64,000 nt of DNA from Metapseudomonas boanensis (GTDB lineage: Bacteria > Pseudomonadota > Gammaproteobacteria > Pseudomonadales > Pseudomonadaceae): contig NZ_JAGTIS010000004.1 of assembly GCF_018704125.1 (NCBI RefSeq), forward strand, positions 186,001 through 250,000, in the 5' to 3' direction. Positions 24,409 through 40,478 of the stretch are shown one piece after another (the stretch's first letter is position 1; each line of letters opens with the position of its first letter). The position numbers and the translations under genes are program-made. A model generated the notes under the pieces. That model was given only the letters and a program-made list of their open reading frames with translations, was not told where the DNA came from and did no database searches.

Positions 24409-24948
24409 CTATCGCAGTGACTTGTGGATGTACCCTTCCCACTGGTGCCGACGGCTCTGGTTGTAGCCCAGAGCAAACCAGCGATCGGTATCATCGAGCG
24501 CACGACTGAAGGTTTCGAGCACTCGCCGAATCTCGGCTTCCCAATCGCATTGATGCGACACCAGATCAGCTTCACGACGGTGTCGTTTGCGTCTGAACCC
24601 GAGTTCGTGAAGAACACCTTGCTCATCGGAACCGGCGCCATCTCGATCAATTGCTCTGCCAGCTCAATGCTTGGGCTATGCGCCTTGTGACTGAACAGGT
24701 GATAGAACGGAAGCTTGCGCAGCTGTTGCTCAGCCGCCTTGATCAGGCATTCGTTGCTGAACCCCAGCGCCCCCCCCCAAGCCCGACGTGGCCTCGATGC
24801 ACTGCTTGCCTTGATCATCGTAGAAGTAGACGCCCTCCCCTCGTTCGATGATCAATGGGCCTACTTCCTGGTGCAGTCGAGCATCCGTGTAAGGGTGTAG
24901 CTGATACTCAACATCCTTCTGAGCGAGTGAGAGATCAGGCATGTTCAT
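24409..24948 (-). pseudogene. Class III aminotransferase, truncated and frameshifted
   Basis: From ATG 24948 the frame reads LHPYTDARLHQEVGPLIIER and YFYDDQGKQCIEATSG, the start of an omega-aminotransferase of the SpuC type. At a run of nine C (24770-24778) the frame is lost. One base fewer restores GGALGFSNECLIKAAEQQLR, then FYHLFSHKAHSPSIELAEQL and FFTNSGSDANDTVVKL. After about 130 residues (of about 450) similarity stops near 24540. The following sequence ends at 24409 in an unrecognised tail, DDTDRWFALGYNQSRR, so a deletion removed the PLP-lysine domain. It is third in the minus-strand unit after the amidotransferase and aldehyde dehydrogenase. Confidence 0.75.
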
Positions 24949-25016
24949 GATTGGGCACTCCCGTGAATTCGTGCCGACGGAGCAAGGCACTGTTGTCTAT
25001 AGGCATGGCCTGCTCC

Positions 25017-26510
25017 TTACAGCTTGATCCACGTGGCCTTGAGTTCGGTGTATTTGTCGAACGCGTGCAGCGACTTGTCGCGACCATTACCCGATTGCTT
25101 GAAGCCACCGAATGGTGCGGTCATGTCACCACCGTCGTACTGGTTGACCCAGACGCTGCCGGCACGAAGCGCTTTGGCGACCAGATGCGCTTTGGAGATA
25201 TTGCTCGTCCATACAGCAGCGGCCAGGCCATAGGGCGTGTCGTTAGCGATCTGGATCGCCTCTTCGGCACTGTCGAAGGTGATAACGGAAAGTACGGGGC
25301 CGAAGATTTCTTCTCGAGCGATCCGCATGGAGTTCAAGACGCCTTCGAAGATGGTCGGCTCGACATATACCCCGCCCGTTTCTTCCAGCGCCCGCTTGCC
25401 GCCGATCAGCAGCTTGGCGCCATCGGCATGGCCCGCCTCGATGTAGGAAAGGACGGTGTTGAGTTGCTGGGTATCGACCAGGGCACCGACATTGGTCTCC
25501 GGATCCAGGGGATTACCCGCCTTCCAGCTCTTGATCGCCTCGACAACCAGAGGCACGAAGTCGTCCTTGATCGAGCGCTCGACCAGCAGGCGCGAGCCAG
25601 CAGTGCAGACTTCACCCTGGTTGAATGCGATGGCCGCAGCTGCAGACTCCGCAGCTACCTGAAGATCAGGCGCATCGGCGAATACGATGTTGGGACTCTT
25701 GCCGCCGGCCTCGAGCCAGATGCGTTTCATGTTCGACTGACCGGCATACACCAAGAGCTGCTTGGCGACCTTGGTCGAACCTGTGAAGACCAGGGTATCA
25801 ACGTCCATGTGCAGAGCCAGAGCCTTGCCGACCGTATGACCGTAGCCCGGCAGCACGTTCAGAACGCCTTTGGGGATACCAGCCTCTACGGCGAGCTGGG
25901 CAACTCGGATCGCGGTCAGCGGGGACTTCTCAGACGGTTTGAGAATGACGGAGTTGCCTGTAGCAAGAGCCGGCCCCAGCTTCCAACAAGCCATCATCAA
26001 CGGGAAGTTCCAGGGAACGATTGCAGCAACGACTCCGATCGCTTCCCGAGTTACCAGACCAAGCTGGTCATGGGACGTGGGCGCCACTTCGTCGTAGACC
26101 TTATCAATCGCCTCACCACTCCAACGAAGAGCAGACGCCGAGCACGCCACATCAACATTCAGCGAGTCGCTGATCGGCTTGCCCATATCCAACGTTTCCA
26201 ACAGGGCCAGCTCCTCGGCATGCGCCTCGACGAGCTCAGCAAACCGGATCATGACCGCTTTTCGACTGGCAGGTGCAAGCTGCGACCAGACTCCGGAATT
26301 GAAAGTGGCACGAGCACTCACGACAGCACGATCTGCATCCGCCTGGTCGCAGCTGGCGACCTCGGCGAGCAGACGACCATCCACCGGGCTTATGCAGTCG
26401 AACGTCTCCCCATCAGTCGCATTGGTGTACTCGCCATTGATGAATGCGCGACCTTCGATCTTCAGGGCCTTTGCTCTGGATTCCCAGTCGGTGCGGGTCA
26501 GGTTGATCAT
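25017..26510 (-). CDS. Aldehyde dehydrogenase (PuuC/KauB-like)
   Basis: This 497-residue NAD(P)-dependent aldehyde dehydrogenase is complete: VPWNFPLMMACWKLGPALAT and FTGSTKVAKQ for cofactor, general base Glu267 in LEAGGKSPNIVF, catalytic Cys302 in NQGEVCTAG. Overall it resembles gamma-glutamyl-gamma-aminobutyraldehyde dehydrogenases of polyamine catabolism. ATG 26510 has GAGGAG 6 nt upstream. It follows an amidotransferase gene and precedes a broken aminotransferase, all on one strand, behind a promoter with the island's shared operator. I infer it oxidises an aldehyde made from the amine after P450 oxidation. Confidence 0.85.
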   Translation of the reverse strand: MINLTRTDWESRAKALKIEGRAFINGEYTNATDGETFDCISPVDGRLLAEVASCDQADADRAVVSARATFNSGVWSQLAPASRKAVMIRFAELVEAHAEELALLETLDMGKPISDSLNVDVACSASALRWSGEAIDKVYDEVAPTSHDQLGLVTREAIGVVAAIVPWNFPLMMACWKLGPALATGNSVILKPSEKSPLTAIRVAQLAVEAGIPKGVLNVLPGYGHTVGKALALHMDVDTLVFTGSTKVAKQLLVYAGQSNMKRIWLEAGGKSPNIVFADAPDLQVAAESAAAAIAFNQGEVCTAGSRLLVERSIKDDFVPLVVEAIKSWKAGNPLDPETNVGALVDTQQLNTVLSYIEAGHADGAKLLIGGKRALEETGGVYVEPTIFEGVLNSMRIAREEIFGPVLSVITFDSAEEAIQIANDTPYGLAAAVWTSNISKAHLVAKALRAGSVWVNQYDGGDMTAPFGGFKQSGNGRDKSLHAFDKYTELKATWIKL

Positions 26511-26602
26511 GTCGTCTCCTCTCGTCGTATTGCTGCAACGCATGGCGAATTCTGGATAAGCGCAGGCACAGGAGCTGATCCAGGTCCTTATTGAGGCAAG
26601 CC

Positions 26603-27280
26603 TCAGATGTTGTTCAAAAAGTCGCGCAGTAGCGCTTTGCAGTTGGCCTGGTTCTCGGGCTCTCGAGCCTGAATCTCGGCACGCATCCGCTCCGGCAGAT
26701 CGCCAGCCGACGCAAGGAAGCGCTTGCCTTCTTCCGTCCCATGCCAATAAGCCGTCCAGGTGTCGAACATCTCCGCATCGATTTCCGGATGAAACTGGAC
26801 CCCCATTGCCCGTCCTTTCCGATAAGCCTGGGGGGCGAGATCCGTCAGTCCCAGCAAGGTGGAGCCTGGTGGCGGAGTGAACGCATCGAAATGAAAGTTG
26901 AGCCATGGCCCTTTGTGTGCCCAGCCATCAGGCGTCTCAAGCGGCGTCCAACCAATCTCCGGAACAGCGTTTCGATAAACCTGTCCACCCAATGCTCGGG
27001 CCAGAAGCTGGCTGCCGAAGCAAATCCCTAATGTCGGAACACCCCTCGCCTGGACGGACTGGAGCCAAGTCAGTTCATTGGCCAGCCATGGCAACCGGTG
27101 ATCGTAAGCAGACTCAGGACTGCCCATCACAACCGCCAGGCCGAGGCTATCTGGATCGGGCAAGCCTGCAGATACCGGAATGACCTCTAGCTGGACGCCT
27201 AGATCGGAAAACAGATCCGGAAGGCTCCCAAGGACATCGGTATCCGAGTGAGTGATGGCGACGGCACGTTCGGGTCTCAT
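26603..27280 (-). CDS. Class I glutamine amidotransferase, candidate gamma-glutamyl hydrolase (copy 1)
   Basis: This 225-residue protein has the class I GATase triad: nucleophile Cys87 in TLGICFGSQLLARALGG, and His164 and Glu166 in GVQFHPEIDAE. Stand-alone enzymes of this fold include PuuD-like hydrolases of gamma-glutamyl amides and GMP-synthase-like proteins. The start at 27280 has AGGAG 6 nt upstream. It is first in a minus-strand unit with the aldehyde dehydrogenase (92-bp gap). A half-degenerate operator (27306-27325) lies 26 bp before its start. It is only distantly like the second amidotransferase at 30717-31448. Confidence 0.75.
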   Translation of the reverse strand: MRPERAVAITHSDTDVLGSLPDLFSDLGVQLEVIPVSAGLPDPDSLGLAVVMGSPESAYDHRLPWLANELTWLQSVQARGVPTLGICFGSQLLARALGGQVYRNAVPEIGWTPLETPDGWAHKGPWLNFHFDAFTPPPGSTLLGLTDLAPQAYRKGRAMGVQFHPEIDAEMFDTWTAYWHGTEEGKRFLASAGDLPERMRAEIQAREPENQANCKALLRDFLNNI

Positions 27281-27305
27281 GGGGCGCTCCTGAGGGGCAA
27301 GCAAA

Positions 27306-27325
27306 TACTTATGAAACCATATCTT
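27306..27325. promoter_or_regulatory. Island operator, copy 1 (left unit)
   Basis: The sequence TACTTAT-GAAACC-ATATCTT keeps the core and right arm of the operator found at 27453 and 31629, but its left arm is degenerate. It lies 26 bp before the start of the minus-strand amidotransferase gene. Confidence 0.6.
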
Positions 27326-27448
27326 AAAGCTAATTAACTGCCAATCCCTCTTCAGCCAGATGCCAAAACCGGGCCGAGTGATCACCGACGAGGGCAACAG
27401 AAAAGGTGGGCTAGAGACCGAATCGGACAAGCGGGCGTAAAAATACGG

Positions 27449-27477
27449 TTGAAAGATATGAAACCATATTTTAAATT
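27449..27477 (+). promoter_or_regulatory. P450 operon promoter with embedded operator
   Basis: TTGAAA (27449-27454) and TAAATT (27472-27477) are separated by exactly 17 bp and look like -35 and -10 boxes. The dyad AAGATAT-GAAACC-ATATTTT (27453-27472) fills the spacer, so a bound repressor would block RNA polymerase. The leader to the P450 ATG is about 135 nt. Confidence 0.7.
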
Positions 27478-27618
27478 GAAATCACCCCACTCCCTCGACA
27501 GGCGGCTACAGACAGCTTCCTCGGGAGAGACGAATGGCGTAGCGCTGGGCCTTGGGCTGTTGAGCCTCTGGCGAGATGTCCACTCAAGAAGCCTTTAACA
27601 AAAATCGGAGGTGTCTAA

Positions 27619-28836
27619 ATGTCATCCAGTGTTCCAACTACGCTTGAGGCCGCCCCTTACCTAGATGTGGCTGACCCTTCATTTTCAATCCGCTCCCAGG
27701 CTGTAATCGATGCCCGTGAGGAAAGCTGGTTTGCGCGCACGCCCTACGGCATCGCGATTCTGCGATACGACGAAGTCAACGCTCTGATTCGCGATCAGCG
27801 ACTGCGTCAGGGCAGTTACGCCTGGCCGGCGCACAACAAGGCGACCGGAAGCTTTGCGGACTGGTGGCTGAGAATGCTCCTGAGTCGAGAAGGCGCGGAT
27901 CACTCCCGCCTTCGCCGCCTTGCCAATCCGGCCTTCTCCCCGAAGCTGGTCCGCAAGATGACCCCTGAATTCCAGGCAATGGCCAACGAGTTGATCGACA
28001 GCTTCATCGATGTCGGCCATTGTGAGTTTGTCTCCCAGTTTTCCGAACCCTACGCAACTCAGGTGATCTGCTCCCTGCTCGGCCTGCCTCGCAGTGAGTG
28101 GCGCGGGCTGGCAGAGCTCGCCGTCGATATGGGTCTGGCCTTGGGCGTCACGTTCAAGCAGGACGAGGCCAAGATCAACGCTGCGACCGACAAGCTGTTC
28201 GGCTATGCAGCAATGGCCGTCGAGAATCTCAAGAAGAACGGTCTGGGTGATGACTTCCTCAGCATGCTGGTCAAGGCCAACGAGGAAGACAAGGCAGCGC
28301 TGAGTGATCAAGAGCTGTACGACATGATTGTTCTCGCGATCTTTGGCGGGATCGACACCACGCGTAACCAGATCGCATTGGCAATGGACACCTTCATCCA
28401 GCATCCAGAACAGTGGAAGCTTCTGGGGGAACAGCCCGACCTGGCCCGCGCGGCGGTCGAGGAGGTCATGCGAGTTCGCCCGACTGTCACATGGGTAACC
28501 CGGGAAGCGCTCGAGGACTTCAACTTCCAGGGACTGGATATCAACAAAGGCACCACTGTCCACTTGTTCAGCCAAGCCGCTGGCACTGACCCCAAAGCCT
28601 TCGAGAACCCAGAGTTCGACATCACGGCCAAGCGTCAGCCGCACTTCGGCTTCGGCGCAGGCGCTCACCATTGCATCGGCCACTTCATCGCCCGAGGTGA
28701 TATGACCGAAGCTCTTAGCCTGCTTGCCCAGCGACTGAAAAGCCCCTCCTACAACGGTCAAGTGACGTGGCTGCCTGATAGCGGCAACACCGGCGCCACT
28801 GCACTGCCGATCAAGTTCGACCGAGAGGTCCGATGA
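27619..28836 (+). CDS. Cytochrome P450 monooxygenase
   Basis: This is a 405-residue soluble bacterial P450. The I-helix oxygen-activation motif is FGGIDTT at 242-248, the ExxR pair is Glu282/Arg285, and the haem-ligand loop is FGFGAGAHHCIG with Cys352. The C-helix ADHSRLRRLANPAFSP is also present. The next two genes overlap it by ATGA junctions and encode its likely electron donors, a flavoprotein reductase and a flavodoxin. This three-part chain resembles P450cin with cindoxin and cindoxin reductase. I infer hydroxylation or N-dealkylation of a gamma-glutamylated amine because of the downstream ligase; the substrate is not readable from sequence. Confidence 0.9.
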   Translation: MSSSVPTTLEAAPYLDVADPSFSIRSQAVIDAREESWFARTPYGIAILRYDEVNALIRDQRLRQGSYAWPAHNKATGSFADWWLRMLLSREGADHSRLRRLANPAFSPKLVRKMTPEFQAMANELIDSFIDVGHCEFVSQFSEPYATQVICSLLGLPRSEWRGLAELAVDMGLALGVTFKQDEAKINAATDKLFGYAAMAVENLKKNGLGDDFLSMLVKANEEDKAALSDQELYDMIVLAIFGGIDTTRNQIALAMDTFIQHPEQWKLLGEQPDLARAAVEEVMRVRPTVTWVTREALEDFNFQGLDINKGTTVHLFSQAAGTDPKAFENPEFDITAKRQPHFGFGAGAHHCIGHFIARGDMTEALSLLAQRLKSPSYNGQVTWLPDSGNTGATALPIKFDREVR

Positions 28837-30131
28837 TGGCGACTCCAACTGTGGCGATTGTGGGCACTGGCCCGTCGGGTTGCTACGTCGCGCAGGCGCT
28901 CAGAAAGGAGTGGCCTGAAGCAGAGGTCGTAATGATTGACCGACTTCCCGTGCCATACGGATTGGTGCGCTATGGAGTGGCCCCAGACCATCCGGGAACC
29001 AAGGCAGTGACGCGGCAGTTCGAAAGGTTGTTCGAACGGGAAAACATCCGATTCATCGGCAATCTCGAGATCGGAAAGGATCTTGCGCTGGATGAGTTGC
29101 GCCAGGCGTATGACATTGTCGTTCTTGCAACGGGGCTCTATGGAGACCGCAGACTCGGCATTCCGGGCGACGACCTCACGCATGTTTACGGTGCAGGTCA
29201 AATCACCCGACTGCTCAATGACCACCCTGACGAGGTCGACTTCGCTCCCCGGCTTGGCAAGCACACCGTCATTGTGGGGAACGGCAACGTCGCCATCGAC
29301 CTGCTGCGTCTGATCGCCAAAACGCATGACGAGTTCGATGGGTCGGATATCTCGGACGAGTCCCTGTCACACCTGCTGGCCGACCCAGTCGAGACCATCG
29401 ACATTGTCGGGCGCTCGCCCGCTGCACTGGCGAAGTTCGATACGGTGATGATCAAAGAACTGGCCAAGCTGAGCAATGTGCGGTTCAAGATCGGCCCGGA
29501 CTCGTCGCTGACATCCGCCTCCAATCCGCTGGAGCACGCAAAAATCGAATCGCTTCTGGCTTTGCAAGGAATCCAAAGCGTTGCTGCAGGCCATAGGAAA
29601 ATGGTGACCTTCCACTTCGGGTGGGCTCCCGAGGAGGTTCACGGCACGGATGAAGTCCAGTCGATTACCTTCGTTTGCGCTGACGGTACCGGGAAGCGCA
29701 TTCAACTCAAAGCGGACAGCGTTATCACCGCCATTGGGTTCGAAGAGCGGAAAGGGACTGATCTGAGCAGGGATGCACTTACCAGCGCGGCATCACATAT
29801 CGAAGCCGGCTATATGGACGCTGGTCTTTATTGTGCCGGCTGGTTCAGAAGAGGCCCGCGCGGAACAATACCTGAAAATCGAGCAGACTCTAAGCGTGTC
29901 GCGGACTCGATAGTTCAGGCAATTAGCGCCGGCACCCTCTCGATTGGCAAACCAGGATTTTCCGCAATCCCAACTGGAATAAAGGATCTCTTGGTTAGCT
30001 ACGACGACTGGAAGCGTATCGATGCCAAAGAACTGCAAAGTGCTCCTGACGGAAGAGTTCGGCGAAAAACAAGAAGCAAACTTGAAATGTTGAGCATCGC
30101 TCAAGAGAACCCCCTGGGAGTCACCCAATGA
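28833..30131 (+). CDS. FAD/NADP ferredoxin (adrenodoxin)-type reductase
   Basis: This 432-residue flavoprotein has an N-terminal FAD motif VAIVGTGPSGCYVAQALRKE, then LPVPYGLVRYGVAPDHPGTK and an NADP-binding site VIVGNGNVAIDLLRL. The order is that of adrenodoxin reductase/FprA and of cindoxin reductase. It would pass electrons from NADPH to the flavodoxin encoded next. The ATG overlaps the P450 stop (ATGA), and its own stop overlaps the flavodoxin start the same way. Codon use is visibly more AT-rich than in the hut genes. Confidence 0.88.
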   Translation: MMATPTVAIVGTGPSGCYVAQALRKEWPEAEVVMIDRLPVPYGLVRYGVAPDHPGTKAVTRQFERLFERENIRFIGNLEIGKDLALDELRQAYDIVVLATGLYGDRRLGIPGDDLTHVYGAGQITRLLNDHPDEVDFAPRLGKHTVIVGNGNVAIDLLRLIAKTHDEFDGSDISDESLSHLLADPVETIDIVGRSPAALAKFDTVMIKELAKLSNVRFKIGPDSSLTSASNPLEHAKIESLLALQGIQSVAAGHRKMVTFHFGWAPEEVHGTDEVQSITFVCADGTGKRIQLKADSVITAIGFEERKGTDLSRDALTSAASHIEAGYMDAGLYCAGWFRRGPRGTIPENRADSKRVADSIVQAISAGTLSIGKPGFSAIPTGIKDLLVSYDDWKRIDAKELQSAPDGRVRRKTRSKLEMLSIAQENPLGVTQ

Positions 30132-30568
30132 AAATACAAGTACTTTTCGGCACCGAAACTGGCAACGCAGAAATGGTTTCCGATGACATCGTAGATGCTC
30201 TCGCTCATGAAATTGACATTTCTGCTGCAGACATGTCCAAGTTCCAGATCAGCGAACTGTCCCCTGAGAACTTCTACATTATCGTCTGCTCCACCTACGG
30301 CGACGGAGAGCTCCCGAACTCAGCGCAGCCTTTCTTCTCGGCCCTGGGAGCTCAAAAGCCCGACCTCACAGGTCTGCGCTTTGCCGTCTTTGGCTTGGGT
30401 GACAGCTTCTACGCTACCTACAACCGGGGCAGCGAAATCATCTCCGAGCAGCTTGTAGAACTGGGTGCGAATCAGATTGGGGAGCGTGGCCTTCATGATG
30501 CATCCAGTGGCGAACTGCCAGGCGATATCGCCATGCAGTGGGCGAAGGAAATCCTCTCGGAAATCTAA
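30128..30568 (+). CDS. Flavodoxin (P450 redox partner)
   Basis: This 146-residue single-domain FMN protein has a phosphate loop GTETGNAEM near 8-16, an isoalloxazine loop CSTYGDGELP near 55-64 and FGLGDSFYATYNRG near 87-100. It is of the MioC/cindoxin size, without a reductase domain. It is translationally coupled to the reductase. Flavodoxins rarely serve as dedicated bacterial P450 donors, since most use ferredoxins, so this operon is a P450-reductase-flavodoxin set. Confidence 0.88.
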   Translation: MKIQVLFGTETGNAEMVSDDIVDALAHEIDISAADMSKFQISELSPENFYIIVCSTYGDGELPNSAQPFFSALGAQKPDLTGLRFAVFGLGDSFYATYNRGSEIISEQLVELGANQIGERGLHDASSGELPGDIAMQWAKEILSEI

Positions 30569-30582
30569 AACTCATCAAGTTA

Positions 30583-30613
30583 AGTGCCGCCTTGGATTCC
30601 AATCTCAGGCGGC
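30583..30613 (+). terminator. Weak hairpin after the flavodoxin gene
   Basis: TGCCGCC and GGCGGCA form a 7-bp stem with a loop of about 16 nt, followed by TATTAATTT. It could weakly terminate the P450 operon or only reduce read-through into the amidotransferase gene. Confidence 0.4.
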
Positions 30614-30716
30614 ATATTAATTTCTGAATCAACAGTCGGCGTCTGACCTCCCCTTGCCAAAGCTGCAATAAAGCCAAACAGCCGACAACCGATCAGAACT
30701 TCGCAGAAGGTAGAAC

Positions 30717-31448
30717 ATGAAACCTGAACCGCTCAAGATCTGCATCCTTGAAAATGGGCTGACGCCCGCCGACCTGATTGATGAGTTTGGATCTTATCCT
30801 GCAATGATTGAACGCTGGATTTCTCCGTTCTTGCCAGGAGCGGCCTTCACCTACATTTCCCCGGTGCGGGGAGAAGCACTCCCCAACCTTGAAGCGTTCG
30901 ACGGCTACATCCTTTCAGGCTCCCGCTACAGCACTTACGAAAAAGCTCCGTGGATGTTGAGCCTTATTGACTTCCTGCAAGCGCTCAAGGAGAAACGAAT
31001 CGCTGTATTTGGTATCTGCTTTGGCCATCAAATCATGGCTGATGCGTACGGTGGCCAGACGACAAAAGCCAAGAACGGCTGGGGTGTTGGGGCACAAGTC
31101 TATGAGTATGTGAACGGTGCGTCCCCTAAGGCAGCAGCCTCTTTCATTTTCCACCAGGACCAGGTCACAACCCTGCCTCCCGGTGCGTCGTGCATTGGAG
31201 GATCCTCCCACTGCACGAATGGAGTTCTCGCCTACGACTTCCCAGCCATCTCGGTTCAGTTCCATCCGGAGTTCACTACCGCGTACATTCAGGCCCTGGC
31301 AACCAAGTTCCGAGGCACATTGCTTCCGGAAGAAATCTCCAACAAGGCGCTGGATAGCATTGAGAGCCTGGAAGTCGATAACAGCCAAATCGCACACTGG
31401 GCTGCATCGTTCTTCAGGAAACATGCGTATAGCATCCCCGTCTCTTGA
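30717..31448 (+). CDS. Class I glutamine amidotransferase, candidate gamma-glutamyl hydrolase (copy 2)
   Basis: The 243-residue product has a catalytic triad: Cys101 in FGICFGHQIMADAYGG, and His183 and Glu185 in SVQFHPEF. No synthetase domain is attached and none is encoded nearby, so hydrolysis of a gamma-glutamyl amide is more likely than ammonia transfer. In the Ipu pathway a hydrolase (IpuF) releases L-alaninol from its glutamyl form, and PuuD does the same for polyamines. It lies 148 bp behind the flavodoxin gene without a copy of the operator, so it is probably transcribed from the P450 promoter. Confidence 0.75.
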   Translation: MKPEPLKICILENGLTPADLIDEFGSYPAMIERWISPFLPGAAFTYISPVRGEALPNLEAFDGYILSGSRYSTYEKAPWMLSLIDFLQALKEKRIAVFGICFGHQIMADAYGGQTTKAKNGWGVGAQVYEYVNGASPKAAASFIFHQDQVTTLPPGASCIGGSSHCTNGVLAYDFPAISVQFHPEFTTAYIQALATKFRGTLLPEEISNKALDSIESLEVDNSQIAHWAASFFRKHAYSIPVS

Positions 31449-31757
31449 TCCCCACTCCCTGAATCATTAAGCCTCCGCACCTTGCGGGGGCCCATCCCCG
31501 CCCACCTCCAACTGCCATTCCACCAGGCGGAATGGCCGCGCTCTGCCCCAACGCAGGACGCCAACCCAGCGATCTCAGCAGCCCCAACAGGGACCCCACC
31601 CATCGGGTTCCAGAAAAAAATCTGTTGAAAGATATAAAACCATATCTTAAATTTAATTTGTCCCTGCCAGGTGCTCACGGCAAGCCGTTAGAGCAGGGAG
31701 TAACAAGAATTAAGCAGCTGCAGAGCCTTGCGAATGCTGCGCCAGAGGAGAACTCGA
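31449..31757. promoter_or_regulatory. Regulatory spacer before the GS-like gene
   Basis: This 309-bp region contains a small GC hairpin (about 31475-31494) just after the amidotransferase stop, then the operator-bearing promoter at 31625-31653. No coding sequence is supported here. Confidence 0.6.
31625..31653 (+). promoter_or_regulatory. GS-like operon promoter with embedded operator
   Basis: TTGAAA (31625-31630), 17 bp, TAAATT (31648-31653). The spacer is the best copy of the island operator, AAGATAT-AAAACC-ATATCTT (31629-31648), with perfect 7-bp arms. Over 30 bp it matches the P450 promoter at 28 positions. Confidence 0.75.
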
Positions 31758-33131
31758 ATGACAGCGTTAGACCTTCACAGAGAACACAACACCAGCTCCA
31801 GCACTGCACAGGAGCTTTCCGCCCGAATTCGTGAAGCGGGTGTGGAGTACCTCTACTACCAGGTGGTCACCCTTTCCGGTCGCGTCATCGCCAAGGTTGT
31901 CCCGGCAAAGCACCTGCTCCGCAACCTGGAAAAAGGCGTTCAGTTTCACCGCACCGCCATCTCTGATCTGCAAACAACGCGCGCTGGCGAACTCCTGGGC
32001 GGCGGAGCCCAGGCTGCAGAATTCACTGCGATGCCGGATATCGACAGCTTCCACGTCCTGCCGTGGGATCGTTCCATCGGCTCATTCTTCTGCCGCCTGT
32101 ATGAGCCGGATCACCGCCTGGAAAATGGCGGTGATCCGTTGGCAACCGACGCTCGTGGCCACCTGATTCGTACCCACAAAACGTTCATCGAAGAAACTGG
32201 CATGCGCCTGAAGTCGGGCTGCGAGCCCGAGATGACGTGGTTCGGCGAGAAGCTGGAAGTACAAGTCCGTCCTGGCGCCAGCCCTGCCTACCATCTGGGC
32301 AACCTGGAGCTGATGCGCCCGATCTACAAGCGCGTCATGGAGTACGCGAACGCAATGGGCCTCGACATGATCGAGGGCGATTACGAAGACCCGGGCCAGC
32401 TCGAGCTGAACTGGATGTTCGACTCCTGCGAGCTGACCGCTGATCGCCTGATGACTTATCGCCTGATCTGCCGCCAGGTAGCTCGCGAGTTCGGCGTCAC
32501 AGCCAGCTTCATGCCGAAGCCGAGCACCGGCAGCATGGGCAACGGCTGCCACCACAACGTCAGCCTGTGGAAAGGCGACCGCAATGCCCTGGCCGAACCA
32601 GGCCGCCGTGAATTGCACCTGACCGATATAGGTTTGCACGCACTCGGCGGCATGCTTGCGCATGCTCCAGGTTCGATGATGATCATGGCGTCGACCGTAA
32701 ACTCCTACAAACGCTTCTGGGACACCGGGCAGTTCGCTCCGACCCGCCTCAACTGGGGTATGGACAACAAGACCTGCACTGTCCGCCTCTCCGCGAACGG
32801 GCGCCTGGAATACAAACTCCCCGACGCCAGCGTGAACCCGTACCTGTCTCACTCCCTGTTGCTGGCCGCCATGCTCGATGGCCTGCGTAACAAGATCGAC
32901 CCGGGCCCGTCCGAGAACAAGGACAGCTATGCGCAAGGTGGTAACTCGGCGCGCCTGCCGCTGACCCTTGGCGAAGCCGTCCAGGCTTTCGACGCCGACG
33001 AAGTCATCCGTGCTGCGCTGCCGCCGGAGATGACGTCGCTCTATCGCGACCTGAAGGCTGACGAGTGGGCCCGCTCCTGCGGCGTGGTCACTGATTGGGA
33101 ACGCAAAATGTACCTGGATTACCTGCCATGA
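31758..33131 (+). CDS. Glutamine-synthetase-like gamma-glutamylamide synthetase
   Basis: This 457-residue member of the GS superfamily probably joins an amine to the gamma-carboxyl of glutamate with ATP. GS-type metal and substrate residues are visible: Glu156/Glu158 in GCEPEMTWF, EGDYEDPGQLELN at 206-218, and FMPKP followed by a GNGCHHNVSLW loop with His265/266. Arg-rich ATP sites follow. The adenylylation-site C-terminus of GlnA is absent and neighbours are catabolic, so it is not the housekeeping enzyme. ATG 31758 has AGGAGA 8 nt upstream. Its stop overlaps the next gene (ATGA). IpuC and PuuA are the known analogues. Confidence 0.85.
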   Translation: MTALDLHREHNTSSSTAQELSARIREAGVEYLYYQVVTLSGRVIAKVVPAKHLLRNLEKGVQFHRTAISDLQTTRAGELLGGGAQAAEFTAMPDIDSFHVLPWDRSIGSFFCRLYEPDHRLENGGDPLATDARGHLIRTHKTFIEETGMRLKSGCEPEMTWFGEKLEVQVRPGASPAYHLGNLELMRPIYKRVMEYANAMGLDMIEGDYEDPGQLELNWMFDSCELTADRLMTYRLICRQVAREFGVTASFMPKPSTGSMGNGCHHNVSLWKGDRNALAEPGRRELHLTDIGLHALGGMLAHAPGSMMIMASTVNSYKRFWDTGQFAPTRLNWGMDNKTCTVRLSANGRLEYKLPDASVNPYLSHSLLLAAMLDGLRNKIDPGPSENKDSYAQGGNSARLPLTLGEAVQAFDADEVIRAALPPEMTSLYRDLKADEWARSCGVVTDWERKMYLDYLP

Positions 33132-33850
33132 ACCTGATCAACCAAGAAGCACTGCAGGAATTCCGGATCATCTGCGCCGACCTGCCTGCTCCACCCCTGT
33201 TCTGGAAGGATGGCGAGGGCTACCGGCATGGGTACGAGTCAGATCTCGGTCGCCTTCTGGCAAACACGCTGGGGCGCTCCTGCAAGTTCGCCTATCAGAA
33301 CTGGGCTGACTTCTACCCTGCACTGCAGGCCGACCAAGGTGAAATGATTCTGTGTGGCCAGGGCATATCCGACTACCGGAAGACGCTCGCGGACTTCACC
33401 GAGCCCTATGCGGTCTTTGACGAGGCCGTGATGGTGCTGCGTGGCAGCCCGGTACGAAGCCCTGCTGATCTTGTCGGCAAAAAGGTTGGAGCCATCGCCA
33501 ATAGCCTGAACATGGCACTGGCCGAAACCTTTACCGGCTGCATTTGCGTGCCGTTTGGCGGCGACAGCGATGACGTCCTGGGTGACATGGTTCAAGCCCT
33601 GCGCGAAGGCAAAATCGACGCGTTTGTCGACGATGACGTCGCGCTGGTACCTCTGGCTGAAGAAGCAGACCTGGGCATTGGTTTTAGCGTGCCGACCCAG
33701 AACAAGTGGGGTATTGCCGTGAAGAAGGGGAACGGGCAGTTGCTCGCAAGGGTCAACGACGCCCTGGCGACAGTGAAAGCCAACGGGCAGTTGGAACAGA
33801 TCTGGCGCAAGTGGATGCCTTCCCTTAGCTACCCGTTCGGGAACAACTGA
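33128..33850 (+). CDS. Solute-binding-protein family 3-like protein without signal peptide
   Basis: The 240-residue protein has the fold pattern of periplasmic amino-acid-binding proteins: YRHGYESDLGRLLANTLG, DFTEPYAVFDEAVMVLRGS, DLVGKKVGAIANSLNMALAE and KIDAFVDDDVALVPLAEE, ending INDAL-type helix ARVNDALATVKANGQLEQIW. Its ATG overlaps the GS-like stop, and the N-terminus (MNLINQEALQEFRIICADL) has no signal peptide or membrane helix. No ABC permease or ATPase gene lies nearby. It may therefore be a cytoplasmic ligand-binding partner of the ligase or a sensor; that is inference. Confidence 0.7.
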   Translation: MNLINQEALQEFRIICADLPAPPLFWKDGEGYRHGYESDLGRLLANTLGRSCKFAYQNWADFYPALQADQGEMILCGQGISDYRKTLADFTEPYAVFDEAVMVLRGSPVRSPADLVGKKVGAIANSLNMALAETFTGCICVPFGGDSDDVLGDMVQALREGKIDAFVDDDVALVPLAEEADLGIGFSVPTQNKWGIAVKKGNGQLLARVNDALATVKANGQLEQIWRKWMPSLSYPFGNN

Positions 33851-33882
33851 CCGCAGCCCTCACCCTGCGCTCAGATGGTCAA

Positions 33883-33909
33883 AGCTCGCTTTGATCAGGC
33901 GGGCTTTTT
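33883..33909 (+). terminator. Intrinsic terminator 1 after the GS-like operon
   Basis: AGCTCGC pairs with GCGGGCT (one G-T pair) and is followed by TTTTT. It lies 33 bp past the binding-protein stop. Confidence 0.7.
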
Positions 33910-33911
33910 GA

Positions 33912-33941
33912 GGCCGTTCCCGCAAGGGGCCGGCCTTTTTT
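33912..33941 (+). terminator. Intrinsic terminator 2, tandem
   Basis: GGCCG and CGGCC flank a C-rich loop and are followed by six T. It directly follows terminator 1, so the operon end is well insulated from the GntR gene. Confidence 0.6.
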
Positions 33942-34055
33942 CTTGCAAGTACAATCAAAACATCTGGAAAGAGGTTATAAGGGCGTGAGAGACGGCAAGT
34001 CTGATAAATTCCAACACGCTTCAGGCATACAGAGAACGAGGATTGGCGCGGGGGA

Positions 34056-34853
34056 ATGGTCACCTGGTCACAGGTGAAAGCACTTCAGGCCAACAGAACA
34101 GGTATGAACGAAACTACGAGTGCACGTACAGCCTCTTTCATGCGGCTGCGTCAGGAAGGGCGAACCGAAGAGGTGGTACGCCGACTGATCGAGGTCATCG
34201 ACCTTGGACTTTTCGCAGAGGGAGAGCAGCTACCCAGCGAGAACGAGTTGGCGATGCAATTTGGCGTCGCGACCGTAACGCTCAGGGAAGCATTGGCATA
34301 CCTTCGGGAACGAGGCGTGATTGAAACCCGCCGGGGACGTAACGGCGGAAGCTTCGTCTGCCCTCCTGTCGAGATATCGGAAGACCTTCTGTTCTCTCGA
34401 TTGAGTGAGATGAGCGCATTGGAACTGCGAGATCTTTGCGACGAGCACGTCGCTATCTCCGGTGCAGCTGCACGTCTTGCAGCAAGACGTTCATCAACGG
34501 AACACCACGCTCGCTTCGAGCACTACATCAAGGCACTAGGGGAAGCGACGACAAGACTGGAAAGGCGTCGCGCCGATGCGCGATTCCACATCGAAATCGC
34601 CGTAGCCGCCCAATCCGTGAGACTTACTCACGCAGAGATGAGCTTGCAAGCCGAGATTGGTGAGCTGCTATGGATTCCTGTCGAAGGCGCACAACGGCCC
34701 GAGGCCGTGCAGTACGAACATCGCGCGATAGCTGACGCGATCATTGCAGGTGATTCGAACCTGGCGGGAGCACTGGCCGAAGCTCACGTGACCCGTGGGA
34801 TCAAACGTTTAATAGATCTGAGACTAAATCTTTTAGCGCAAGAAGAGGAGTGA
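34056..34853 (+). CDS. GntR (FadR-type) transcriptional regulator
   Basis: The 265-residue frame has a GntR winged HTH (GLFAEGEQLPSENELAMQFG, VATVTLREALAYLRERGVIE) and an all-helical FCD effector domain with DEHVAISGAAARLAA, ADARFHIEIAVAAQS and HRAIADAIIAGD. It is the only DNA-binding protein in the island and thus the best candidate for the shared AAGATAT-N6-ATATCTT operator. The start is uncertain: ATG 34104 is also possible, and neither has a strong ribosome site. It has no copy of the operator upstream, so autoregulation is not evident. Confidence 0.85.
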   Translation: MVTWSQVKALQANRTGMNETTSARTASFMRLRQEGRTEEVVRRLIEVIDLGLFAEGEQLPSENELAMQFGVATVTLREALAYLRERGVIETRRGRNGGSFVCPPVEISEDLLFSRLSEMSALELRDLCDEHVAISGAAARLAARRSSTEHHARFEHYIKALGEATTRLERRRADARFHIEIAVAAQSVRLTHAEMSLQAEIGELLWIPVEGAQRPEAVQYEHRAIADAIIAGDSNLAGALAEAHVTRGIKRLIDLRLNLLAQEEE

Positions 34854-34961
34854 CTGGCACGTCACTTGCTCCCCGTTTCTTGAGCAAATCTGATCACGGT
34901 TTGTGTGTGAAACGTACCCACAATAACTAATATTCAACGACACGCAGCGGGACGCTAAGCC

Positions 34962-35720
34962 ATGCCAGAAGATATTCTCCGAGACGAGCTTGATGAATGT
35001 GCAACACGCATCAACGCCTCGATCGGTAACGTATTTAGCCAACTGACCGCGCTCGCGGATGAGGTTGTCGACATCTGGCGGCGACTCAGCGCGGAAGGGA
35101 GGAAGCCTACCTCCAAGGATCTGGCCACGCTGAAGCCCAAGATCGACGCCCACCTCCAGGCCGAAAGAACCTCTGTTCATGGCACGGGGGTTGTGATCGA
35201 GCCGGGAGAACTGGCCGATCAAGAGATGTATCTGGAGTGGTGGCGAGTGGGGGCGTCGGGCAAAGTCGTTCCCATGACCCTCAACTTCAACCGTCGAAGC
35301 GAAAGCTATTACAACTATCAAAGCATGCCTTGGTTCGCCCGGCCGAGAGACACAGGGCACAATATTGTCGTTGGCCCCTATGTCGATCTGTACGGCGCCG
35401 ACATGTATATCCTGACCTTCTCCATGCCTATCTATGTCGACGGCCGCTTTGTCGGCATTGCTGGAGCGGATATAGCCCTGCACCGGTTCGAGCGCGTTCT
35501 GCTCTCAAGCCTGATGAAGATGGAGCACGAAGCCCTGATCGTGACGGAAGAAGGGCGAGTCGTTGCAGCCAACACCGCCAACTGGACGGTCGGGGAAATG
35601 GCACATCATGCGTTCAACCGCGCAGAAGCGGACTGCAAGATAATCGAGCTCGGCGAAGCTGCGGCTCACTGGTCACTCATCCAGCGGCCCAATCGACGGA
35701 ACATGACAGGGGCAGCATAA
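34962..35720 (+). CDS. Soluble cache (PDC sensor)-domain protein
   Basis: The 252-residue protein has an N-terminal helix (DECATRINASIGNVFSQLTALADEV) followed by a cache/PDC fold: YYNYQSMPWFARPRDTG, GPYVDLYGADMYILTFSMPI, YVDGRFVGIAGADIALHRFE. Cache domains usually sit outside the membrane in chemoreceptors and kinases. Here there is no membrane segment, signal peptide or output domain. Together with the signal-less binding protein it suggests cytoplasmic small-molecule sensing in this island. It lies 108 bp behind the GntR gene in the same direction. Confidence 0.7.
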   Translation: MPEDILRDELDECATRINASIGNVFSQLTALADEVVDIWRRLSAEGRKPTSKDLATLKPKIDAHLQAERTSVHGTGVVIEPGELADQEMYLEWWRVGASGKVVPMTLNFNRRSESYYNYQSMPWFARPRDTGHNIVVGPYVDLYGADMYILTFSMPIYVDGRFVGIAGADIALHRFERVLLSSLMKMEHEALIVTEEGRVVAANTANWTVGEMAHHAFNRAEADCKIIELGEAAAHWSLIQRPNRRNMTGAA

Positions 35721-36103
35721 ATCACTTTGGCTAGCTTGCGTCCGATGAGGGGCGAGGCTGCGATATAAGCACTTCGCCACGAAGCTTCGGCAGGCTATTG
35801 AACCGACTCTAACGATACCCATGCCGCTTTGAGCCCCCCCACTGATCCCTGGATAGTCTCTCCAGCAAATACAGCCCAGCTCTTTGCCTGGAACATCCAG
35901 ATTCGGCAACAGCGCTATTGCCCTGATGATCTTGGGCAAGACTAGGAGTGAATTGCGTTGCCTTAGCATTTTGCACCGCATGTTTTGCCTCGAGCCTCGG
36001 CCTGTCGGTGCTGCCACGATCAAACTGCACAATGAAATATGCCCTTGAGGACAAGGGCATATCGGCATCCAAGAATAAGTGGAAGCAGGATCAGGCTTGG
36101 CGA
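35721..36103. other. Spacer between convergent genes
   Basis: This 383-bp region between the cache gene and the permease gene (which read towards each other) holds one clear element, the hairpin at 36037-36062. No open frame with family features is present. Confidence 0.5.
36037..36062 (-). terminator. Terminator-like hairpin after the permease gene
   Basis: ATATGCCCTTG and CAAGGGCATAT form a perfect 11-bp stem with a 4-nt loop, followed on the minus strand by TTTCATT. It lies 42 bp past the permease stop. Confidence 0.65.
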
Positions 36104-37612
36104 TCAGGCCGCATCCGCGCTCACCCCTCGAAAGGAACTGCCAGGAACGGCATCCCCATGCGGTGCATCGCTACGGTGATGGGGGCGAGATAGCGCCATG
36201 TAAACGAAGCCGATTGCAATTACGGCTGCCGCCGAGAGCAGGACTATCCAGTTATCGTACCAGGCTGCATCAGGAGTCCGAGGCCAGCAGATATTCACGA
36301 TAGCTGCCACGCCGTACACCAGGGCACCAATATTGATCAGCAGGCCAAAGCGACCAAGCTGATATTCACCGGAGGGTTTCCATCCCTTCAGACGTGCTCG
36401 CAGGGACGCAAGGATGACCATCTGGAAGGCAATGTAGATACCGACTGACGAGAAGGAAATGATCTTCAGCAGTGCATCAGCAGAAATCATCGAGCCTACG
36501 ACGATGATGCCTGGAACGATTGCAGACAGAAGCAGAGCGTAGGGCGGTACATGCTTCTCATGAGAGAACTTCGCCAGCAGAGTGCTACCGAACACCATCT
36601 TGTCGCGGGCATAGGCATAGACCAGCCGACTGGCGGCAGCCTGCAGGCTCATCGCGCAGGACAGGAAGGAAATCAGCACGACACCCAGTACCATCCAGGC
36701 GCCGACGGTGCCGAATGCAGACTTCAAGACACCCGTGACCGGGTCACCCGCAGTGCCATCGATCACAGCGCGGAAGTCCACAACCGAAAGGGTCAGCGCC
36801 AGGCACACAAAGGTTGCTGCAGCGCCACCGATGTAGATCGTGCGACGCATGGATTTGGGGATACGAAGCCCGGGATTCGGCACCTCTTCGGCGACGTCAC
36901 CGCAAGCTTCGAAGCCGTAATACTGGAACACGCCAATCAAGCTCGCCGCCAAGAACGCGCTGAGGTAGGTGCCACTCCCTTCAGCACCGAACGAGTCGAA
37001 AAGGACACTGAAGTCATGATGGCGCTCGAAGATCAGCAAGTAGCCACCGACCACCAGAGCACCAAGGATCTCCGCCGTAAAACCAATGATGGCGGCCTGA
37101 GCCAAGATGCGAGTTCCCATCAAATTGATGATGGTAGCCAGCGCCAGCACAGCCAATGCACAAATTACCGTTGCTTCGGTGGTCGGCTCAAAACCAATGA
37201 TTGACGCGGTGTAGGGGGCAGCACCATAGACCACACCCGCAATGGTCGAAAACAGCGCCATCACATAGACCCATCCGGTCATCCATGCCCACTTGCGCCC
37301 CCACAGGCGACGGGCCCATGGGTACACGCCACCCGCCAAGGGGTACTGGGAAACGATCTCGCCAAACACCAGCGCAACCAGCATCTGGCCAAAGCCGGCC
37401 ACGAAAAGAGCCCAGATCATCGGCGGCCCTCCCAGTGCGAGGGAGGTGGCGAAGAGGGTGTAAATGCCTACGACTGGCGAAAGGTAGGTGAAGCCCAGCG
37501 CGAAATTCGCCCACAGACTCATGTCCCGCCGGAATTCAGATTTGTACCCAAGCGATGCCAGGCGTGCGGCGTCAGCATCACCGGGGATGTTCTTGTGGTG
37601 ATCAGTCATCAT
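36104..37612 (-). CDS. APC-superfamily amino acid/amine permease
   Basis: This 502-residue membrane transporter has about 12 helices and the APC start (LASLGYKSEFRRDMSLWANF, then FALGFTYLSPVVGIYTLF). It resembles the amine/choline-type APC permeases that accompany amine catabolic genes. I start at the first of two adjacent ATGs (37612 and 37609), with GAGGT just upstream. As the last island gene it probably imports the amine substrate. No convincing copy of the island operator lies upstream, only an AT-rich partial resemblance near 37742-37765. Confidence 0.8.
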   Translation of the reverse strand: MMTDHHKNIPGDADAARLASLGYKSEFRRDMSLWANFALGFTYLSPVVGIYTLFATSLALGGPPMIWALFVAGFGQMLVALVFGEIVSQYPLAGGVYPWARRLWGRKWAWMTGWVYVMALFSTIAGVVYGAAPYTASIIGFEPTTEATVICALAVLALATIINLMGTRILAQAAIIGFTAEILGALVVGGYLLIFERHHDFSVLFDSFGAEGSGTYLSAFLAASLIGVFQYYGFEACGDVAEEVPNPGLRIPKSMRRTIYIGGAAATFVCLALTLSVVDFRAVIDGTAGDPVTGVLKSAFGTVGAWMVLGVVLISFLSCAMSLQAAASRLVYAYARDKMVFGSTLLAKFSHEKHVPPYALLLSAIVPGIIVVGSMISADALLKIISFSSVGIYIAFQMVILASLRARLKGWKPSGEYQLGRFGLLINIGALVYGVAAIVNICWPRTPDAAWYDNWIVLLSAAAVIAIGFVYMALSRPHHRSDAPHGDAVPGSSFRGVSADAA

Positions 37613-39533: not shown

Positions 39534-40478
39534 ATGAAACATTGGCTTGCACTCGTCATCGGCCTGCCCACTGCCAACGCCACCGCACGCATGCGTGCCT
39601 GGCGTGCCTTGAAGGCCTGCGGCGCTGCCGTGCTGCGAGACGGCGTTTATTTGCTGCCGAATAACGCAACCTGTCACGAAGCCCTGGTAGCCATCGAACG
39701 AGACATCCTTTCCATCAAGGGCACTGCTTATCTGCTGCCAATCAACGATCCCAAGGGCGAACGCTTCATGGCTCTGTTCGACCGGGTCGAGGAGTACGCC
39801 GCGTTGCGGGTCGATATTGAAGAATGCCGTGAACAGCTGACTTCGGCGAATGCGCTGACGTCCACCAGGCAGATTCGCAAGCTACGCAAGGCGTTTGCCC
39901 AGCTCTGCGCCATCGACTTCTTCCCAGGAGACGCCCGGCAACAGACCGATGCGGCCCTGCAGGAGCTGGAGGCCGCCGTCAGCAAAGCCTTGTCGGCGGA
40001 TGAGCCAAGTAGCCATGATCTGCCGATGAGGGTACTCAGCCGCGGGGACTTCCAAGGCCGTCTCTGGGCGACCCGAAAGCGCCCCTGGGTCGATCGCCTG
40101 GCCAGTGCCTGGCTGATCCAACGGTTCATCGACCGTGATGCGCGCATTCTCTGGCTCGATGCGCCCGGCGACTGCCCTGCCGATGCGTTGGGTTTTGATT
40201 TTGACGGCGCCACCTTCAGCCATATCGGCCATCGCGTCACCTTCGAGACCCTGCAAGCCAGCTTCGAACTGGAGATGCCTGGGCTGGACCGGGTCGCGGC
40301 CCTCGTCCATTACCTCGATGTGGGCGGAGCTGCGCCTGCGGAGGCGGCCGGTATCGAGCGGGTGCTGGCGGGGCTGCGTGAAACCATTGCCGATGACGAT
40401 CAACTTCTGGCCGCGGCCGGCGCCATCTTCGATGGGTTGCTGGCCGCTTTCGTAAAGGATGAAAACTCCAATGAGTGA
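39534..40478 (+). CDS. chrB: Chromate resistance protein ChrB
   Basis: The 314-residue ChrB has an N-terminal domain with LRDGVYLLPN and LLPINDPKGERFMALFDR, and a C-terminal chrome-domain with WATRKRPWVDRLASAWLIQR and HRVTFETLQASFELE. In studied operons ChrB acts as a chromate-responsive regulator of the efflux gene chrA. It overlaps chrA by 8 nt (ATGAGTGA). No ribosome site is visible before its ATG, so a leaderless start is possible. Confidence 0.88.
   Translation: MKHWLALVIGLPTANATARMRAWRALKACGAAVLRDGVYLLPNNATCHEALVAIERDILSIKGTAYLLPINDPKGERFMALFDRVEEYAALRVDIEECREQLTSANALTSTRQIRKLRKAFAQLCAIDFFPGDARQQTDAALQELEAAVSKALSADEPSSHDLPMRVLSRGDFQGRLWATRKRPWVDRLASAWLIQRFIDRDARILWLDAPGDCPADALGFDFDGATFSHIGHRVTFETLQASFELEMPGLDRVAALVHYLDVGGAAPAEAAGIERVLAGLRETIADDDQLLAAAGAIFDGLLAAFVKDENSNE

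Follow-up and report, generated by a model that had tools for sequence, protein, structure and literature searches.

The 64,000-nucleotide stretch of Metapseudomonas boanensis analysed here (the window) holds, at ~24.4–37.7 kb, an island of genes around a cytochrome P450 and a glutamine synthetase (GS)-like ligase, whose reading as gamma-glutamyl catabolism of amines, in which a flavodoxin-fed P450 of cyclic-amine type takes part, is partly supported. Judged from their sequences, the island genes appear to form one regulon under common control. Whether this regulon serves the breakdown of small cyclic secondary amines, with piperidine (C5) as the likeliest substrate and pyrrolidine (C4) as a possible one, by ring opening, gamma-glutamylation, oxidation and hydrolysis, we regard as an even call. 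An earlier note on this DNA had listed a permease, a GS-like ligase, a P450 with reductase and flavodoxin, an aldehyde dehydrogenase, two class I glutamine amidotransferase-like hydrolases (GATases), and binding and Cache proteins, and Pfam and NCBIfam scans of the window proteins recovered every one of these parts:

~24469..24960, minus strand: broken remnant of a class III aminotransferase (PRK06105 type; Pfam Aminotran_3 and alignment to the L076 orthologue)
25017..26510, minus strand: PuuC-like aldehyde dehydrogenase (NCBIfam PuuC, 713.8 bits, below the cut-off of 850)
26603..27280, minus strand: class I glutamine amidotransferase-like hydrolase 1 (GAT1, GATase 1; Pfam GATase, Cys and His-Glu motifs)
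27306..27325, no strand: operator-like site of the GAT1/PuuC unit (three mismatches in 20 bases in the window search, one in the 20-base core in the genome search)
27453..27472, no strand: operator-like palindrome of the P450 unit, between a -35-like TTGAAA and a -10-like TAAATT
27619..28836, plus strand: cytochrome P450 (Pfam p450; nearest solved chains 3p3l/3p3o; GGIDTT and FGAGAHHCIG)
28833..30131, plus strand: FAD reductase of the adrenodoxin reductase/FprA type (structure-chain match; 43% to XplB)
30128..30568, plus strand: flavodoxin (Pfam Flavodoxin_1; nearest solved chain cindoxin 4oxx, 4.7e-32)
30717..31448, plus strand: class I glutamine amidotransferase-like hydrolase 2 (GAT2, GATase 2; Pfam GATase; nearest solved chain gamma-glutamyl peptidase 1)
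31629..31648, no strand: operator-like palindrome of the GS unit (window, genome and related-locus pattern searches)
31758..33131, plus strand: GS-like ligase, predicted organic-amine type (nearest solved chains 9qur, 3.9e-54, and 7cql, 1.2e-53; GlnA ammonium-site features replaced)
33128..33850, plus strand: binding protein with an amino-acid-binding-protein fold and no export leader (Pfam SBP_bac_3; predicted fold)
34104..34853, plus strand: GntR/FCD regulator (Pfam GntR and FCD)
34962..35720, plus strand: leaderless dCache_1 protein (PF02743, 1.6e-13)
36104..37612, minus strand: APC permease (NCBIfam scan; nearest plasmid match, at 60.5%, the permease before xplB in DN22)

The plus strand thus runs from the P450 through reductase, flavodoxin, GATase 2, GS-like ligase, binding protein and GntR/FCD regulator to the dCache protein, while the minus strand carries GATase 1, the PuuC-like dehydrogenase and the aminotransferase remnant, with the APC permease at the far end. 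Overlaps of four bases join P450 to reductase, reductase to flavodoxin, and GS to binding protein.

Common control is suggested by a palindrome, AAGATATG-AAAC-CATATCTT, which was found by reading the intergenic regions and precedes the P450, GS and GATase 1/PuuC units. In the window it has three matches at up to three mismatches in 20 bases, against none in 100 shuffles, and across the 5.71-Mb genome its 20-base core has three matches at up to two mismatches, all in the island, against none for the reversed control. Among 15 Pseudomonas-type loci compared (the window, L009–L018, L021 and L075–L077), an operator-like site stands ahead of the P450 in all 15 with at most one mismatch in 17, and ahead of GS in eight with at most two mismatches, including the two loci where the GS block is inverted (L010 and L012); none was found ahead of GS within four mismatches in L013, L015, L016 and L017. 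Such sites also lie ahead of PuuC in L016 and L017 and ahead of a GabD-like dehydrogenase in L009. Over the 15 loci there are 30 operator-like sites with at most one mismatch, against none in each of 20 simple shuffles, and in the genome G001 a perfect 14-base operator core lies ~0.3 kb upstream of the APC permease (L132:13585). The window has 5 promoter-like matches, no more than the shuffle mean of 6.2, and its 9 terminator-like matches are fewer than the 13.0 in shuffles; the operator claim is independent of that scan.

Outside these loci the signal thins out. No operator match within four mismatches was found in the distant loci L036, L087, L019, L035, L088, L072, L074 and L093, and L070, L071, L037 and L034 hold matches with three to four mismatches. 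Only one of these is well placed, a core with three mismatches in 17 between GntR and GS in an actinobacterium (L071:12078), from which the operator-like site may predate the gammaproteobacterial clusters. For the glutarate genes, no operator match was found in G000 (L134), and only matches with three to four mismatches in L131–L133.

The same parts also occur together elsewhere. The synteny search proposed in the earlier note for the set of P450, reductase, flavodoxin, GATase and GS found it, with GATase 1 and the binding protein, in all 15 Pseudomonas-type loci, and the set survives inversion of the GS block (L010, L012). GATase 2, GntR and Cache genes are present in 14 of them, the exception being the Ventosimonas contig L021; the PuuC-like dehydrogenase has an orthologue (74–84%) in nine of the 14 loci other than the window. 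On that 11-kb contig, from Ventosimonas gracilis, P450, reductase, flavodoxin, GS, binding protein and GATase 1 are kept, and a 2.6-Mb genome of the family (G1076) keeps the P450 and the binding protein. In the family sample, searches at E ≤ 1e-60 for the binding protein and at E ≤ 1e-100 for the P450 hit the identical 16 of 298 genomes. Within the genus the P450 turned up in 4 of 18 genomes and within the class in 3 of 369, the window's own included; for the phylum of a Conexibacter metagenome-assembled genome the count is 3 of 396 and for the class of Oricola 2 of 289, centre genome included. The trait is patchily distributed, yet its components stay together.

On a wider scale, GS lies in the same stretch as the P450 in 24 of 28 loci from Gammaproteobacteria, Alphaproteobacteria and Actinomycetota. 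These loci have a P450 identity of at least 47%, which leaves out L023–L027 (26–29%) and two ectoine-like clusters, L038 and L039 (46–47%); once the latter two are added, the count is 24 of 30. The four loci with no GS near the P450 are L020 (a 5-kb contig), L022 (a 9.7-kb contig), L037, where GS is 19 kb away on the same plasmid, and L073, with none in 20 kb. Seven of the ten plasmid P450 matches of ~45% or more were included, and H4, H6 (same species as H5) and H7 were left out; H7 (Rhodococcus JS3073) has GS and binding protein ~18–20 kb from its P450. The redox partners over the 28 loci are flavodoxin plus reductase (16), ferredoxin plus reductase (three: L071, L072 and, ~13 kb away, R. 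opacus pR1CP1) and diflavin reductase (two: Oricola and Paracoccus TOH), with none recognised by the queries in seven. Two different GS-like genes stand beside the P450 in L019, L034, L035, L072 and L074, perhaps as two ligases or a mixed oligomer. L071 also holds a PuuD-like C26 hydrolase, a PuuC relative (58%) and a gamma-aminobutyrate (GABA)-transaminase-like gene, and the annotation of R. opacus pR1CP1 places an aminotransferase, aldehyde dehydrogenases, a gamma-glutamyl-GABA hydrolase, a ferredoxin and a reductase beside GS and binding protein. In L089, L090 and L098, reductase-flavodoxin pairs close to that of the window adjoin aldehyde dehydrogenase, aspartate dehydrogenase and thiamine-diphosphate enzymes, and the stretches seen carry no annotated P450.

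The GS-like enzyme keeps the metal and glutamate motifs of its fold (EPE, ED..QLE, GCHHN and RLE). On the other hand, the Glu of GlnA GFEAP is Phe or Trp in 25 of 25 members of the GS-like family (GQFAP, GLFAP, GLWAP and similar), and the DGSS segment of GlnA is replaced in the aligned family, with the genome's own GlnA-type L083 as control. The flap Glu, presumably Glu327, is taken here to be the Glu of GFEAP. In passages of PMC11335346, the loss of the Glu flap and of Asp50 is tied to ligases of organic amines, not of ammonium. Lacking these two ammonium-site features of GlnA, the island enzyme should therefore ligate an organic amine rather than ammonium. Its nearest solved chain is a glutamate--methylamine ligase (9qur), followed by a 'type III glutamate--ammonia ligase' (7cql), and the genome holds nine more genes of the GS family, of which one is GlnA-type by its motifs. 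It has been proposed for the GS genes of Gulosibacter, in passages of PMC9477822, that they assimilate the ammonium released by the pathway. Applied to the island, this proposal would suit the GS fold, the best NCBIfam match ('type III glutamate--ammonia ligase', 288 bits, below the cut-off of 470) and the name of the second-best solved relative; set against the exchange of the GFEAP Glu throughout the family, the replaced DGSS and a methylamine ligase as nearest solved relative, we hold it to be highly unlikely.

The Cys and His-Glu motifs of both hydrolases are intact in the window; those of GATase 1 are also present in all 15 loci compared, and those of GATase 2 in 13 of 13 true GATase 2 genes. 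In L021 and L071, the row given for GATase 2 in the motif comparison is the GATase 1 gene again. The window GATases match Pfam GATase better than C26, and the hydrolases do not reach the PuuD equivalog; C26 genes occur in L071 and L034, and one is annotated in R. opacus. No PuuB-type flavoprotein oxidase was found among the island genes scanned.

The P450 keeps the heme-thiolate Cys motif FGAGAHHCIG and the acid-alcohol pair GGIDTT and should thus activate oxygen. P450, reductase and flavodoxin are encoded by overlapping genes with no ferredoxin gene between them, an arrangement kept in all 15 loci, and electrons would be expected to pass from the reductase to the flavodoxin and on to the P450. 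The best solved relative of the P450 is 3p3l, with 273 bits against 158 for the next kind. We take 3p3l and 3p3o to be AurH of aureothin biosynthesis, assigned to CYP151; P450s are placed in one family at over 40% identity. CYP151 accounts for two of 277 gammaproteobacterial P450s as recorded in passages of PMC7998510. One scan of genome contigs for comparison with the cyclic-amine P450s PipA and MorA returned no mycobacterial locus. On two Streptomyces plasmids (L038:9376-13135 and L039:9357-13092), a related P450 and a ferredoxin lie between the ectA and ectoine-synthase genes, in ectoine-like biosynthesis clusters that also hold an adenylation enzyme and a carrier protein.

The P450 unit might instead serve an unrelated substrate, such as a xenobiotic or a secondary metabolite, and neighbour an amine pathway by chance. 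The presumed AurH identity of its nearest solved relatives would agree with this, as would the similar reductase-flavodoxin pairs that adjoin other P450s; the common operator, the presence of GS in 24 of 28 loci, the sharing of the same 16 of 298 genomes and the persistence of the set through inversions render such a coincidence very improbable.

The size of the substrate is suggested by genes of C5/C4 metabolism in relatives. In P. oleovorans (L012), the glutarate dioxygenase GlaH (512 bits, cut-off 333), the L-2-hydroxyglutarate oxidase LhgO (605, cut-off 299), an intact aminotransferase orthologue, one open reading frame (ORF) and the P450 stand in a row, and a GabD-like gene comes after PuuC. 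In G001, the genes after PuuC are GabD (988, cut-off 828) and GabT (823, cut-off 713). G001, G005 and G013 have GlaH and LhgO no more than ~20 kb from the P450, with a GntR-type regulator 53–71% identical to that of L012; in G005 and G013, GabD and GabT stand beside GlaH/LhgO, between them and the P450, with an MFS transporter nearby. Linkage of GlaH to the P450 was thus found in four of the six genomes looked at, three of them close kin. With a transaminase, a semialdehyde dehydrogenase, GlaH and LhgO close to the cluster, these relatives point to a C5 (or C4) omega-amino acid, and piperidine is favoured because GlaH acts on a C5 acid, although GabT and GabD fit C4 equally. The aminotransferase remnant of the window, which the earlier note did not list, aligns to residues 25–85, 86–167 and 461–484 of the 491-residue L076 orthologue, with its frames shifted and its middle gone; the gene is intact over its full length in relatives. 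According to passages of PMC9477822, PipA is induced on piperidine and recombinant MorA with its ferredoxin system oxidised morpholine, while the Gulosibacter P450s are 52–53% alike and the GS locus tags adjoin those of the P450s (437/438 and 3051/3052).

In the pathway that we favour, the APC permease would take up the amine, and electrons from NADPH, passed through reductase and flavodoxin, would let the P450 hydroxylate the carbon next to the nitrogen. The ring would then open to an omega-aminoaldehyde, prone to reclose as a cyclic imine. The GS-like enzyme, with ATP, would join the amine of this aldehyde to the gamma-carboxylate of glutamate, so that the ring stays open, and the PuuC-like dehydrogenase would yield gamma-glutamyl-5-aminovalerate (or gamma-glutamyl-GABA). 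One or both GATase-like hydrolases would free 5-aminovalerate (or GABA) and glutamate; a transaminase and a semialdehyde dehydrogenase would lead to glutarate (or succinate), and GlaH/LhgO would convert glutarate to 2-oxoglutarate. The leaderless binding protein may hold the glutamyl intermediate in the cytosol, and the GntR regulator, the Cache protein or both may control the three promoters through the common operator.

The PuuC-like, PuuD-like, GabT and GlaH genes would suit cadaverine or putrescine equally, so that the substrate could be an open-chain amine (cadaverine, an N-alkylated diamine or a polyamine), with the P450 replacing the PuuB oxidase on the gamma-glutamyl derivative. We consider this improbable, since a primary amine does not require a P450 and, in the passages of PMC9477822, the nearest characterised P450s act on N-heterocycles. 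Polyamine ligases, moreover, are probably supplied elsewhere, because the genome has nine further GS-family genes.

The order of the first two steps is a separate matter, in which action of the P450 before the GS-like enzyme appears about twice as likely as the reverse. In the reverse order, which was that of the earlier note, the gamma-glutamyl amide of a cyclic or N-alkyl amine would form first, the P450 would hydroxylate it beside the nitrogen, and the resulting N-acyl hemiaminal would open to a gamma-glutamyl aminoaldehyde. This is possible but unlikely in our judgement. It would follow the aniline and 1-naphthylamine pathways, where glutamylation precedes the oxygenase in passages of PMC11335346. 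The position of the Streptomyces P450 relatives between ectA and ectoine synthase would also agree with it, as an acylated amino acid is their likely substrate, and so would the Arg of the cytosolic binding protein that aligns with Arg77 of LAO-type amino-acid-binding proteins. The P450 would then have to accept a glutamyl amide, and glutamate is less usually ligated to a secondary cyclic amine than to a primary one. For the P450-first order, the activity of MorA on morpholine reported in passages of PMC9477822 suggests that the P450 may act first; the aminoaldehyde must then be stopped from closing, which glutamylation would do.

The binding protein shared by these schemes starts within the GS stop, which leaves no room for a leader in the window, and no ABC permease partner for it was found among the island genes scanned. 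It is 65–77% identical to eight aligned gammaproteobacterial orthologues and 44% to that of Conexibacter, in a final alignment without L013, L016 and L017. Its reading as a cyclohexadienyl-dehydratase-like enzyme was weakly rejected: sequence and fold searches put arginine, glutamine and LAO binding proteins first, with a modest model (mean pLDDT 77, pTM 0.68, TM-scores of ~0.4–0.5). In the Cache protein, 12 of 13 rows have Met, and L071 has Arg, at the position that matches the carboxylate-binding Arg126 of PctA by spacing, a difference that is only a hint.

Several observations weigh against the cyclic-amine regulon as drawn here. As to the enzymes, the flap residue of GS is numbered Glu327 here, whereas passages of PMC11335346 print Glu357, and the Glu of RLE is kept in the island enzyme. 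The match to PuuC falls under its curated cut-off, making the dehydrogenase PuuC-like only, as does the GABA-transaminase match of L071 (363 bits, cut-off 507). Membership of the P450 in the PipA/MorA family is putative and draws on gene context, and the related P450s (46–47%) of the ectoine-like clusters occur without GS (none in L038 by search, none annotated in L039). As to the C5/C4 genes, the aminotransferase of the window genome is broken and its GlaH and GabT are on other contigs (the glutarate genes on contig C45); in G390, GlaH is likewise on another contig. Among 16 cluster loci searched, in stretches of 9–21 kb (64 kb for the window), GlaH was found in one (L012), and in the loci searched no operator of their own was found for C5/C4 genes other than the GabD of L009. 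As to control, no operator-like site was found ahead of GntR, so that binding of GntR to the operator is something we infer.

Relatives of the island also occur on plasmids for degradation of RDX. On pGKT2 of Gordonia KTR9, genes before xplA encode relatives of GntR (45%), Cache (35%), P450 (57%) and GS (55%); XplB is 43% identical to the window reductase and the flavodoxin domain of XplA 49% to the window flavodoxin. The GS match there (L036:13325-15769) stops ~27 residues short of the end of the window GS, and the frame continues into xplB; the gene table of pGKT2 lists only the xplB part, and the in-frame join is a reading from the sequence. A glnA-xplB fusion and cyp151C on pGKT2 were reportedly described by Indest in 2010. 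In Rhodococcus DN22, plasmid p5 has a permease before xplB that is about 61% identical to that of the window; it is the best match among 72,556 plasmids, nine of which have one at 1e-60. This permease and a 2,4-diaminopentanoate-dehydrogenase-like gene, 52% identical to a relative in L071, stand ahead of xplB-xplA (L093:3449-5952). The two RDX plasmids thus hold different pieces of this cluster.

Simple descent is a different question. XplB falls within a 22-row clade of the window reductase (99/99) with its branching unresolved, and the clade also holds reductases of plasmids without the cluster. Several plasmid reductases (45–51%) are nearer to that of the window than XplB is (43%), and reductase-flavodoxin pairs are also found beside other P450s, both of which count against it. 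Direct descent of the XplA flavodoxin from this cluster was rejected in so simple a form, as the tree groups it (97/96) with flavodoxins from Klebsiella, Sinorhizobium, R. erythropolis R138 and R. oxybenzonivorans, outside the window clade; so was kinship of the XplA heme domain with the island P450, at only 24% over 292 residues. No acid-alcohol pair was found in XplA of KTR9 in the motif comparison, and XplA works reductively according to passages of PMC8081977. XplA/XplB resemble the island in a related reductase and flavodoxin domain, in the GntR, Cache, P450 and GS relatives of pGKT2 and in the permease of DN22, and differ from it in that the XplA flavodoxin is fused to a P450 without the acid-alcohol pair, whereas the island proteins are separate and the pair is kept. 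On a plasmid of R. erythropolis R138 (L097:4938-7931), a reductase and a flavodoxin-P450 fusion of XplA length lie beside an APC permease and a succinate-semialdehyde dehydrogenase.

Tentatively, and with more doubt than confidence, P450 clusters of the PipA/MorA sort in several phyla might be seen as one gamma-glutamyl family, in which the P450 opens the ring, GS locks the aminoaldehyde, a leaderless binding protein carries intermediates, redox partners are exchangeable, and xplA/xplB were assembled within such a cluster.

Around the island, G+C is lower across ~21–39 kb of the window than on both flanks, and at 39534-41835 two adjacent ORFs resemble ChrB and ChrA of chromate resistance, judged by eye.

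If the cyclic-amine reading is true, the island would provide the genes and the chemical logic by which Pseudomonas uses amines of the piperidine and pyrrolidine type, and the GS genes beside cyclic-amine P450s would be explained as protecting ligases rather than as ammonium assimilation. It would also offer a natural P450 that is fed by a flavodoxin and comes with a reductase of its own, a protein of the periplasmic-binding-protein fold that is cytosolic and strictly partnered with a P450, and a concrete proposal for the gene neighbourhood where xplA/xplB arose, RDX itself being a cyclic nitramine. The gamma-glutamylating amine pathway with a flavodoxin-fed P450 that the earlier note had claimed is supported by homology and genome context, under one control, and the operator and strict co-occurrence make the observation stronger than was claimed. 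The C5/C4 genes of relatives, the links to PipA/MorA-type systems and RDX plasmids, the common operator and the aniline and naphthylamine pathways were absent from that note. Among the matches listed from the open-licence PMC literature, no paper on this gene set was found.

Among known systems, PipA from Mycobacterium smegmatis (piperidine/pyrrolidine), MorA from Mycobacterium sp. HE5 (morpholine) and their Gulosibacter relatives are like the island in acting on N-heterocycles and in having a GS gene close to the P450 (from the Gulosibacter tags). Unlike the island, these systems use a ferredoxin, their GS is read as assimilating ammonium, and no GATase, binding or Cache protein appears in the passages of PMC9477822 that describe them. 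Puu/Pau share the GS-like ligase, PuuC-like dehydrogenase, GATase-like hydrolase, APC permease and transaminase logic, with a flavoprotein oxidase where the island has its P450 system. P450cin and cindoxin share the flavodoxin as electron donor, cindoxin being the nearest solved flavodoxin; P450cin acts on a terpene, and its cluster is not known to hold GS or GATases. The isopropylamine Ipu pathway, cited in PMC11335346, shares N-glutamylated intermediates with the island and is not known to have a P450-reductase-flavodoxin system of this sort. Finally, the aniline (Atd/Tdn) and 1-naphthylamine (Npa) pathways cluster a GS-like organic-amine ligase, a GATase-like gamma-glutamyl hydrolase and an oxygenase, as the island does; in passages of PMC11335346, however, the oxygenase is a Rieske dioxygenase, the amines are aromatic and there is no ring opening to an aminoaldehyde. 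Since these pathways already join ligase, hydrolase and oxygenase, the island, put forward in the earlier note as a candidate new system, is new as a flavodoxin-fed P450 variant and not as a new kind.

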